DNA of 41,651 nt, taken from Gammaproteobacteria bacterium. Its GTDB lineage: Bacteria > Pseudomonadota > Gammaproteobacteria > Pseudomonadales > Azotimanducaceae. Of the stretch, positions 13,101-14,705 are shown one piece after another; position 1 is the first letter of the stretch; every line of letters starts with the position of its first letter. The notes under the pieces are model-generated. The model was given only the letters and a program-made list of their open reading frames with translations. It had not been told where the DNA came from and ran no database searches. Location: assembly GCA_003248125.1 (NCBI GenBank), contig QJXZ01000342.1:1-41651 (forward strand), in the 5' to 3' direction. A program made the position numbers and the translations under genes.

Positions 13101-14012
13101 TCAGCCGCGCGGATGGTGGCGCGAATGTAGCGCCTTCAGGCGCTGCTGCGCGACGTGAGTATAAATCTGGGTCGTGGACAGATCTGCGTGCCCAAGCATC
13201 ATTTGCACTGCGCGCAAGTCCGCACCGTGGTTGATCAAATGGGTCGCAAACGCGTGCCGAAGGGTATGCGGTGATAGGTGGCGCTGAATACCCGCCTTTC
13301 GTGCATACCGTTTGATGCCATGCCAGAACGTCTGCCGCGTCATCGTGCGGCCGCGCCGGCTCGGGAACAGCGCCGCCGGGGCGTTGCGGGCAGCAAGATG
13401 GGGACGCGCCGCACGGAGGTACTCATCGAGCCACGTGAGCGCCTCCTCACCCACCGGCACCAGGCGTTCGCGCCCGCCCTTGCCCACCACCCGGACCACC
13501 CCTTGGCGAACGTTGACACCCGTGGCCCGCAAACCGACCAGTTCCGAAACCCGCAGGCCAGTGGCATAGAGCAGCTCGAGCATCGCGCGATCGCGCAAGC
13601 CGAGCGCGGTGGTGGTATCCGGTGCGGCGAGCAACGCCTCCACGTCGCCTTCGGACAGTGACGCCGGCAGAGTCCGACCGAGTTTCGGTGCCGACAGATT
13701 CGTGGTTGGGTCGGTCGCAACCGCCTCGCGGGCCACGAGATGACGATAGAAACCCTTGAGCACGGACACCAGCCGCGCGGTTGAGCGGGCGGTAAATCCT
13801 CGTGCCTGCCGGTCACCGAGATAGTCGAGGATGTCGGCCCGCCGCGCATTGGCAAGCGGCCGGTCGAGCGCCGCAGCAAACGCCTCGAGGTCGCGCCGGT
13901 AGGCCGCCAAGGTGTTGGCGCGCAGTCCACGCACGGACCAGAGTTCGTCGAGATAGCGGTCGATCAAGGGATCGGCCGACCGGTTGGTCGAATTGGGGCG
14001 TCGAGTGACCAT
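13101..14012 (-). CDS. xerD: Site-specific tyrosine recombinase XerD
   Basis: A 303-residue recombinase that, with XerC, resolves chromosome dimers at dif. An N-terminal SAM-like core-binding domain (about 12-100) precedes the catalytic domain with all active-site residues: R154 (TGLRVSELVGL), K178 (VGKGGRERL), H249 and R252 (SPHTLRHAFATHL), H275 (LGHADLSTTQ) and the nucleophile Y284 (QIYTHV). Length and the xerD-dsbC adjacency favour XerD over XerC. It is a chromosomal housekeeping recombinase: no integron, phage or att site accompanies it. A probable promoter lies at 14069-14097. Confidence 0.94.
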   Translation of the reverse strand: MVTRRPNSTNRSADPLIDRYLDELWSVRGLRANTLAAYRRDLEAFAAALDRPLANARRADILDYLGDRQARGFTARSTARLVSVLKGFYRHLVAREAVATDPTTNLSAPKLGRTLPASLSEGDVEALLAAPDTTTALGLRDRAMLELLYATGLRVSELVGLRATGVNVRQGVVRVVGKGGRERLVPVGEEALTWLDEYLRAARPHLAARNAPAALFPSRRGRTMTRQTFWHGIKRYARKAGIQRHLSPHTLRHAFATHLINHGADLRAVQMMLGHADLSTTQIYTHVAQQRLKALHSRHHPRG

Positions 14013-14052
14013 TCCTGCCGCAATTGTACGGCGCGCGTCGCGCTGCCCATTT

Positions 14053-14069
14053 GCTCGATGAAGTCGAGC
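14053..14069. repeat. Perfect 6-5-6 inverted repeat, possible operator
   Basis: GCTCGA (14053-14058), five bases, TCGAGC (14064-14069). It could be a hairpin in the xerD 5' UTR or a dyad operator serving either xerD or the divergent RNA gene. Nothing in the sequence decides between these. Confidence 0.4.
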
Positions 14070-14097
14070 TTATATCAATAACTAGCTGATAAATCTA
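14069..14097 (-). promoter_or_regulatory. Probable sigma-70 promoter for xerD
   Basis: On the minus strand TATAAG (14074-14069), five of six matches to the -10 consensus, lies 17 bases after TAGATT (14097-14092), a weak -35. It sits in the only AT-rich island of the gap (about 14069-14107). The predicted start would give a roughly 50-base 5' UTR for xerD containing the inverted repeat GCTCGA-N5-TCGAGC (14053-14069). Confidence 0.4.
14073..14085 (+). promoter_or_regulatory. IHF-like binding site
   Basis: TATCAATAACTAG agrees with the integration host factor consensus WATCAANNNNTTR at all constrained positions but one (A for the second T). It lies in an AT-rich patch about 36 bases upstream of a sigma-54-like -24 element, a usual position for IHF at sigma-54 promoters. 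The match is by eye only. Confidence 0.3.
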
Positions 14098-14120
14098 TGC
14101 TTTCATTAGCGAGCGTGCGT

Positions 14121-14136
14121 TGGCATACAAGCTGCA
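14121..14136 (+). promoter_or_regulatory. Possible sigma-54 (-24/-12) promoter for the + strand RNA
   Basis: TGGCATACAAGCTGCA resembles the sigma-54 consensus TGGCACG-N4-TTGCA: GG at 14122-14123 and GC at 14134-14135 have the required 12-base phase, with three mismatches (T, A and C in place of C, G and T). The predicted start would be near 14147. I found no good sigma-70 -35/-10 pair on this strand; TATGCT at 14096-14101 is the best alternative -10. Confidence 0.35.
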
Positions 14137-14146
14137 ACTCGGACCG

Positions 14147-14310
14147 TTGGCGGCGGACGATGCGGGCTGTCCCCCTAAGCGTCGATCGCGGCTGCGAAAC
14201 GAAGGCCGTCTCTCCCCTCCGTTTCGCATTGTGGTTCCGAGGAACCGACCAGCTTGTCAGGCGATCCTCTCCCCTCTTGGTCCCCCACGCCTGGCAAGCT
14301 GGTTTTTCTT
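14147..14310 (+). ncRNA. Candidate structured small RNA with C-rich loops
   Basis: The 342-base gap between xerD and rplS has no credible protein gene but strong RNA structure on the + strand. In order: a C-run (TGTCCCCCTAAG, 14169-14180 region); a 9-bp hairpin, arms 14193-14201 and 14220-14228, loop 14202-14219; a short GGTTCC/GGAACC hairpin (14233-14246); and a 16-bp terminator hairpin with a 24-base loop. The two large loops each contain the identical 10-mer CTCTCCCCTC (14210-14219 and 14267-14276), and the last also holds TCCCCC. C-rich loops like these are used by known riboregulators to pair with G-rich ribosome-binding sites (for example Xanthomonas sX13); homology is not claimed. The 5' end is uncertain: about 14147 if the sigma-54-like promoter is used, about 14108 otherwise. 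Confidence 0.55.
14248..14310 (+). terminator. Strong intrinsic terminator of the candidate small RNA
   Basis: Left arm ACCAGCTTGTCAGGCG (14248-14263) pairs over all 16 positions with CGCCTGGCAAGCTGGT (14288-14303), including one G-U pair, and is followed by TTTTCTT (14304-14310). On the opposite strand the G-U pair becomes a C-A mismatch and no T tract follows, so the element is oriented to the + strand. The 24-base pyrimidine-rich loop is unusually long for a plain terminator. Confidence 0.75.
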
Positions 14311-14336
14311 GCATCGGGCAGGAACCCACCCGATGC
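14311..14336. repeat. 8-bp hairpin downstream of rplS
   Basis: GCATCGGG (14311-14318) and CCCGATGC (14329-14336) form a perfect 8-bp stem with a 10-base loop, 19 bases after the rplS stop. On the minus strand it is followed by AAGAAAAA rather than a T tract, so it is not a canonical terminator for rplS. It may protect the 3' end of the operon mRNA. Confidence 0.5.
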
Positions 14337-14354
14337 GCCAGCGTAGCGTTGCAG

Positions 14355-14705
14355 TTAGACCTTTTCCTTGATCCGCGCCTTGCGTCCCGACAAGCCCCGC
14401 AGGTAGTAGAGCTTCGCCTGGCGGACATCGCCGCGGCGCTTCAGCTCGATGCCGGCAATCAGCGGACTATGGGTTTGAAATACGCGCTCGACACCGACGC
14501 CGTGGGAGATCTTGCGCACGGTGAACGACGAATTCACGCCACGGTTGCGCTTGCCGATCACCACACCTTCGAACGCCTGGGTGCGCTCCCGGCCGCCTTC
14601 GGCAACTCGTACTTGGACAACCACGGTGTCGCCAGGGGCGAAGTCCGGCACATCGGCTTTCAGTTGCTCGTTCTCGATCGCCTCGATGATCTTGTTCCTA
14701 CGCAT
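14355..14705 (-). CDS. rplS: 50S ribosomal protein L19
   Basis: A 116-residue ribosomal protein at the interface of the two subunits. The family signatures are all visible: [21 protein letters not shown], then [21 protein letters not shown] and the basic C-terminal [14 protein letters not shown]. Length is typical. ATG at 14705 overlaps the trmD stop by 8 bases, in the universally conserved rpsP-rimM-trmD-rplS order. Translation is probably coupled to trmD. Confidence 0.98.

Follow-up and report, generated by a model that had tools for sequence, protein, structure and literature searches.

The C-rich loops of two small RNAs, sX13 and NfeR1, are reported to pair with G-rich sites (PMC3771888, PMC10746234). 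sX13 is an RNA of 115 nt that is encoded downstream of polA, that is reported from Xanthomonadaceae only, that folds into three stable stems, each capped by a C-rich loop (4C, 4C, and 5C), and that is reported to act on G-rich motifs near translation starts (PMC3771888). NfeR1, an alpha-r14 RNA of alphaproteobacteria, is described as having three hairpins that differ strongly in their stems and share the unpaired C-rich motif CCUCCUCCC, and as being linked to nitrogen control, with a sigma-70 promoter at which NtrC is a repressor (PMC10746234). Two small RNAs of Pseudomonas, as summarized in a review, depend on RpoN: CrcZ, an A-rich decoy for Hfq of 407 nt encoded between cbrB and pcnB, has an RpoN promoter that works with an enhancer-binding protein and IHF, and NrsZ, a processed, intergenic RNA of ~226 nt that adjoins ntrC and is reported as an activator of rhlA, requires RpoN and NtrB/C (PMC8395346). 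In searches of the open-access literature, the titles and abstract openings listed mention neither a small RNA at xerD-rplS nor a sigma-54-driven small RNA with C-rich loops.

A conserved three-hairpin RNA between xerD and rplS

The locus analyzed here lies in a 41,651 nt stretch of gammaproteobacterial DNA (contig QJXZ01000342.1; below, 'the window') between xerD (13101-14012, minus strand), which is divergent from the predicted RNA, and rplS (14355-14705, minus strand), which is convergent with it (gene names as in the original prediction, which was made from the sequence). The predicted small RNA, ~160 nt, occupies positions 14147-14308 of the plus strand; it matches a covariance model with 101.4 bits, the window being one of the eight sequences behind that model, and its predicted fold has an energy of -76.9 kcal/mol, as compared to a mean of -56.8 kcal/mol for shuffled sequences (z -4.7; 0 of 200 shuffles as good). 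Folding and covariation define a first hairpin, SL1 (14149-14193, plus strand), with the C-rich stretch UGUCCCCC (14168-14175); the predicted SL1 loop in the window is CUGUCC (14167-14172), and the last three C of UGUCCCCC (14173-14175) are predicted to pair with GGG at 14164-14166. Folding, covariation, and loop conservation define a second, SL2 (14194-14227, plus strand), with the loop CCGUCUCUCC (14206-14215). In the spacer that follows, a small additional predicted hairpin, GGUUC/GAACC (14233-14246, plus strand), is an insertion of the window member in the alignment of the eight sequences. The last hairpin, SL3 with its T tract (14247-14307, plus strand), resembles an intrinsic terminator: a stem of 15-17 bp (core 14249-14263 with 14288-14302) encloses a loop of ~24 nt, comprising CUCUCCCCUC (14267-14276) and then UUGGUCCCCC (14277-14286), and a run of TTTTT comes next (14303-14307). 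A promoter and terminator scan covering sigma-70 promoters and short-loop terminators listed nothing here, the SL3 loop being longer than a simple terminator scan allows. Between the T tract of the RNA and the rplS stop codon, positions 14311-14336 hold an extra 8-bp hairpin, GCATCGGG/CCCGATGC, with a T tract on neither strand.

The original prediction had described a series of hairpins ending in a long stem and T tract, two large loops with the same 10-mer, CTCTCCCCTC, at 14210-14219 and 14267-14276, and further C runs at 14171-14175 and 14282-14286, all of which are present in the sequence at these positions. The first copy of the 10-mer falls for the most part within the SL2 loop, and the window holds no copy other than these two (shuffled sequences hold a mean of 0.05 copies, and at least two copies in 1 of 100 shuffles).

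A BLAST search of 145 related genomes with the DNA yielded matches at E <=1, mostly short ones, in 98 genomes. Seven relatives reached E <=2.4e-4; all seven match over the SL3 region, are located past the 3' end of rplS, and can be extended to the set of three hairpins. A covariance model, R1, built from the window and these seven relatives (150 positions, 27 pairs; promoter left out) detects the RNA in 43 of 206 genomes of the same family, in 16 of 37 genera; its 46 matching places in the family comprise the 43 members and three opposite-strand matches on the near-palindromic SL3 stem, and a second weak match in one genome (G201, locus L121) is left out of the counts. Retraining on 42 members (opposite-strand SL3 row dropped, G189 left out) gave a second model, R2, which detects the RNA in 45 of the 206 genomes, again in 16 genera; its two additions, in G076 and G168, are flanked by XerD and RplS and are preceded by a TGGCAC...TGC element. 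The member that was left out (G189:C150, locus L078) keeps the promoter element and SL3 with CTCTCTCCCC, the loops of SL1 and SL2 being unrecognizable by eye; it is apparently a decaying copy, and its genome is the smallest RNA-bearing genome of genus g22. Within g22, RNA-bearing genomes have a median size of 4.9 Mb (n=10) and genomes without a match a median size of 2.6 Mb (n=30; Mann-Whitney p ~9e-6), a difference that may be partly an artefact, incomplete bins being common among the small ones.

Outside the family, searches of samples of 341 genomes of the order and 369 genomes of the class revealed no credible member, the order search having missed one known member. In the order sample, R1 made three matches, all in the same family, and recovered three of the four known members in its listing; since it missed the fourth, G048, divergent copies elsewhere could be missed as well. 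In the class sample, R2 matched the window's own genome and, weakly (E 0.005-0.075), four other loci, which we rejected: they have no XerD, RplS, TrmD, or DsbC match, their best promoter match from -70 to +20 nt around the start of the match is at most 9/12, and the TGGCA-N8-TGC that lies inside one of them (L115) has the wrong place and spacing. A scan of named genomes with a pattern of promoter plus loops gave 31 places. Of these, 27 match R1 and adjoin xerD or rplS; the other four (L084, L100, L101, and L103), with no model match at E 0.01 and no XerD or RplS, are chance matches. The 27 places are in metagenome bins labelled Pseudomonadales, Pseudomonadaceae, Gammaproteobacteria, or Proteobacteria and evidently coincide with the genomes of 27 known members, since the model scores are identical, so that they add no new members; the pattern fits only those 27 of the 43 and the scan therefore says little about divergent members.

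The structure is supported by compensating changes. Among 42 aligned members, 90.6% of cells are paired and 25 of 27 pairs have changed on both sides, with a covariation score of 0.51, as compared to 0.20 with shuffled partners and <=0.12 with slid partners, in an alignment of related members that was fitted to the model, a procedure favouring SL1 and SL2. For SL3 alone, 100% of cells are paired over 13 modelled pairs, 11 of which have changed on both sides; for SL1, 83.6% of cells are paired and all eight modelled outer-stem pairs have changed on both sides. Alignment-free folding gives the same indication, each of the 43 members folding better than its own shuffles (z < -2, median -5.2; 60 shuffles each). 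In SL1 and SL2 the letters of the stems vary and those of the loops are fixed, and the SL3 stem is fairly conserved in sequence. The SL2 loop core CUCUC is invariant in 42 of 42 aligned members, with outer stem columns of 0.02-0.4 bits; it was located in 41 members and is predicted to be unpaired (probability >0.7) in 38 of them. Of the 31-33 members that have letters at the UCCCC columns of the SL1 loop, 31-32 keep them. This C-rich loop, around UGUCCCCC, is the third that is conserved, save in one genus, g37, in which SL1 appears by eye to have no run of four C. In the consensus, the C-rich loops read UGUCCCC, then GUCUCUCCC, and, in SL3, whose loop is likewise C-rich, CUCUCCCC plus GGUCCCC.

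The identity of two loops, as described in the original prediction, holds for the window and is unusual among its relatives. At least 10 identical letters are shared between the SL2 and SL3 loops in 4 of the 41 members with both loops located, the window included, and the mean shared length is 6.9, as compared to 6.7 (sd 0.1) for loops taken from different members. The comparison lends no support to a co-evolution of the two loops other than their shared core; judged by the aligned members, the conserved feature is a common CUCUC(C) core and not an exact repeat of the 10-mer.

The neighbourhood, about which the covariance model has no information, is the same throughout. All 43 members lie at one locus, with XerD on the upstream side in 42 and DsbC in one, and in the 39 of 43 member loci (2.2 to 3.2 kb each) in which RplS is visible the RNA is 3' of rplS. 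In one locus (L087; VXYL01000044.1, 3593-6148), the RNA and rplS lie ~2 kb from each other; immediate adjacency to rplS is therefore not obligatory. From the 161 family genomes without a match and from other families we inspected 29 rplS loci (26 from the same family and three from other families). There the RNA seems truly absent, because the stretch examined has the promoter element in the orientation of the RNA in 0 of 29 and because xerD and rplS are less than 60 nt apart in 11 of the 24 loci with visible xerD.

Rfam 15 gave no match at gathering score over the whole window; one match, E 2.1 and far below its gathering score, over 14000-14360 at E <=5; and four sub-gathering matches, none recurring, over 20 member loci at E <=3. 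The original prediction, which proposed a structured RNA that had not been described and that bears C-rich loops, and which had named compensatory changes, loop conservation, a covariance-model search of relatives, and an Rfam scan as its checks, is thus borne out on each. We conclude that the RNA is very likely real and belongs to an undescribed family of small RNAs.

A putative sigma-54 promoter and IHF-like sites

The original prediction does not mention a sigma-54-type promoter and an IHF-like site, which are the most informative elements here. In the window, the plus-strand sequence TGGCATACAAGCTGCA (14121-14136) matches a promoter consensus with GG at 14122-14123, a spacing of N10, and GC at 14134-14135, and a count of 12 nt from the -12 GC gives a predicted transcription start at ~14147. 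We take TGGCACG-N4-TTGCA to be the -24/-12 consensus of sigma-54, a sigma factor of nutrient and stress responses. The window copy matches it at 9 of 12 positions, is among the five weakest copies, and has a score of 9 that ~5% (4.9%) of shuffles reach. Across the family, the best match is at least 10/12 in 38 of 43 members, as compared to 0.5% of shuffles. TGGCA-N7..9-TGC is found upstream of the model match in 41 of 43 members, the promoter being no part of the model, and TGGCA with an exact GG-N10-GC is found in 42 of 43 if G189, in which the element lies inside the match, is counted. The element starts 47-50 nt before UGUCCCC in seven of the eight founding members, that is, in the seven that have it. 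One member of the 43 (G016:C97, locus L043) keeps the hairpins and lacks the TGGCA element, the usual position of which is occupied by TTGCG/TTGCT repeats; a weaker GG-N10-GC, TGGCTCGCAAGCTGCC (9/12), lies farther upstream, upstream of position 1501. We conclude that the family likely has a sigma-54 promoter, an assignment that holds with less certainty for the copy in the window.

An IHF-like site lies on the minus strand at 14079-14091 of the window, 42 bp upstream of the -24 element; it reads TAACTAGCTGATA on the plus strand, and its reverse complement agrees with WATCAANNNNTTR, presumably the IHF consensus, at 8 of 9 fixed positions. Sites scored in this way by sequence reach at least 8/9 in 31 of 42 members, as compared to 11% of shuffles, and 9/9 in nine of 42, as compared to 0.6% of shuffles. 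They are phased: 30 of 33 are on one strand, and they cluster at -41 to -43 (11 sites), -53 to -56 (13 sites), and -63 to -66 (six sites), that is, about one helical turn apart, an arrangement that none of 5000 random-position trials equalled, the members being related and hence not independent. Dyads that match at least 12 of 14 positions of what we take to be the NtrC consensus are present in 10 of 42 members, in genera g35 and g37 only, as compared to 0.02 expected; the window has no such dyad at 11/14 or better. In six of 42 members (L046, L047, L048, L051, L058, and L060) we noticed GTGAC-N5-GTGAC direct repeats with 10/10 matches (0.04 by shuffle, noticed and counted on the same data) at ~-106 to -160 from the -24 element, possibly a site for another sigma-54 activator. 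The window's genome encodes rpoN, as do 44 of 45 RNA-bearing genomes by the R2 counts, a co-occurrence that weighs little, because 149 of the 161 genomes without the RNA carry rpoN too.

Candidate function and rival explanations

The reading that we prefer, and to which we assign a probability of about 0.6, is that the locus encodes a trans-acting small RNA under sigma-54 and IHF control, the C-rich loops of which pair with G-rich ribosome-binding sites. The parts of this reading that are supported by comparison of the members are the structure, the loop conservation, the promoter architecture, and the fixed neighbourhood; transcription, the identity of the activator, pairing, and the direction of the effect we infer from them as follows. 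An enhancer-dependent sigma-54 promoter belonging to the RNA itself would drive synthesis of the ~160-nt transcript with the assistance of IHF, and the terminator hairpin of the RNA would end it. The activator may differ between genera and may be NtrC-like in some. A signal read by the sigma-54 activator would cause the RNA to accumulate, whereupon the most likely pairing partners of the C-rich loops would be G-rich stretches, for example GGGGAGAG, located at or close to ribosome-binding sites; such pairing would lower the translation of several mRNAs for as long as the activator is on. Antisense pairing through the loops has, in our judgement, a somewhat better than even chance.

The original prediction had proposed a riboregulator that pairs with ribosome-binding sites through its C-rich loops. 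The structured RNA and the conserved loops stand; the pairing received no support from the target search, in which GGGGAGAG before ATG is not enriched in genomes with the RNA. The pattern GGGGAGAG-N3..10-ATG occurs at 81 sites (mean 13.5) in six RNA-bearing genomes and at 185 sites (mean 15.4) in twelve genomes without the RNA. Relative to its reversed form it is over-represented in both sets (81 vs. 15, ~5-fold, in the six; 185 vs. 20, ~9-fold, in the twelve) and therefore looks like a common ribosome-binding-site variant. It seems to be a ribosome-binding-site habit of the family, found repeatedly ahead of genes for TonB-dependent receptors. We rejected these receptors as a target class, since they account for six of 63 predicted ORFs, as compared to 11 of 63 (10 distinct genes) in a control drawn from 80 regions of five of the twelve RNA-less genomes, one gene occurring twice in each 63-ORF set. 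No gene class under GGGGAGAG stands out against the control in this comparison of 63 with 63 predicted ORFs.

This lack of an mRNA target, in the GGGGAGAG counts as in the comparison of gene classes, is what would be expected if pairing with mRNA were not the role of the RNA and the repeated C-rich loops instead served, under sigma-54 control, as a decoy that titrates a protein, an explanation that we consider unlikely. To our knowledge, no protein of these bacteria binds CUCUCCC loops, which counts against it. The loops are repeated and share a core, as a decoy would suggest; however, the motifs of SL1 (UCCCC) and SL2 (CUCUC) are unlike each other. The combination of a sigma-54 promoter with IHF is the arrangement of CrcZ (PMC8395346), but the motifs of CrcZ are A-rich and are carried by a longer RNA. 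Similarly doubtful is a broader role under sigma-54 and IHF control, in which the repeated loops would either titrate an unrecognized RNA-binding protein or block the GGGGAGAG ribosome-binding sites as a whole class at once; if this were true, a nutrient signal would reset translation broadly in these uncultured bacteria.

The position of the RNA, which is 3' of rplS in all those loci that show rplS (39 of 43), and the SL3 stem, which is the longest part conserved in sequence, are compatible with an element that acts in cis, as a terminator or insulator for the convergent rplS operon and xerD or as an antisense or attenuation device for rplS. But a terminator needs neither a sigma-54 promoter of its own nor two more hairpins with conserved loops; in the window, it is only on the plus strand that a T tract comes after the stem; xerD and rplS lie less than 60 nt apart in 11 of 24 RNA-less loci, and the RNA and rplS are ~2 kb apart in L087, so that a role in cis has only a slim chance of being correct. 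An equally slim chance attaches to the possibility that the promoter-like element is real and the RNA is made from another promoter. G016, which keeps the RNA without the TGGCA element, and the weak 9/12 copy in the window speak for this possibility; the near-fixed distance of the element from the RNA in seven of eight founding members and its absence from the RNA-less loci (0 of 29) speak against it. That the region encodes a small protein and the structure is incidental we regard as barely credible: ORFs of at least 60 aa do cross the region in the window, but an ATG-started ORF of at least 15 codons lies wholly inside the RNA in only eight of 43 members, and the letters of the loops are kept while the stems change in compensating pairs.

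Comparison with described small RNAs

Our preferred reading, a sigma-54-controlled RNA that pairs through C-rich loops, places the RNA close to several described small RNAs, which we set apart by their published descriptions. With sX13 it shares three stable stems that each end in a C-rich loop, save for SL1 in genus g37. It differs from sX13 in length (~160 nt), in the letters of its loops, in its sigma-54-type promoter, and in its location at xerD-rplS: all 43 R1 members adjoin xerD or dsbC and none is placed downstream of polA. Judging by the labels of the 27 named places, it is not confined to Xanthomonadaceae. With NfeR1 and alpha-r14 it has in common three hairpins, a shared C-rich unpaired motif, stems that differ strongly around a fixed loop motif (in SL1 and SL2), and a possible link to nitrogen control; CCUCCUCCC is not found in all three loops in either the window or the consensus, the putative promoter is of the sigma-54 and not the sigma-70 type, and the bacteria belong to another class. 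With CrcZ it has in common a putative promoter for RpoN, which would work with an enhancer-binding protein and IHF; it does not lie between cbrB and pcnB, and positions 14147-14308 of the window, inspected by eye for A-rich Hfq motifs of the CrcZ/CrcY type, contain no run of more than three A. With NrsZ it shares the character of an intergenic small RNA with a predicted dependence on RpoN and, in part of the family, possibly on an NtrC-like activator; it does not adjoin ntrC. The sequence traits of a sigma-54 unit are present, namely, a GG-N10-GC element at a near-fixed distance and an IHF-like site upstream, the element of the window being weak. Because a defining feature of each described RNA, be it locus, motif, or taxon, fails here, we file the RNA with none of the four.

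The RNA would be a new small-RNA family, strongly supported by comparison, in bacteria that are represented here by metagenome bins only. It can be tested directly, since the analysis specifies a start site, a sigma factor, the loops, and a motif that its targets may carry. The RNA would join two designs that the papers cited above describe apart: several C-rich loops, as in sX13 and NfeR1, and an enhancer-dependent sigma-54 promoter, as in CrcZ, with IHF, and in NrsZ. The comparison suggests that RNAs with C-rich loops, unlike in sequence and in locus, recur in distant proteobacteria.
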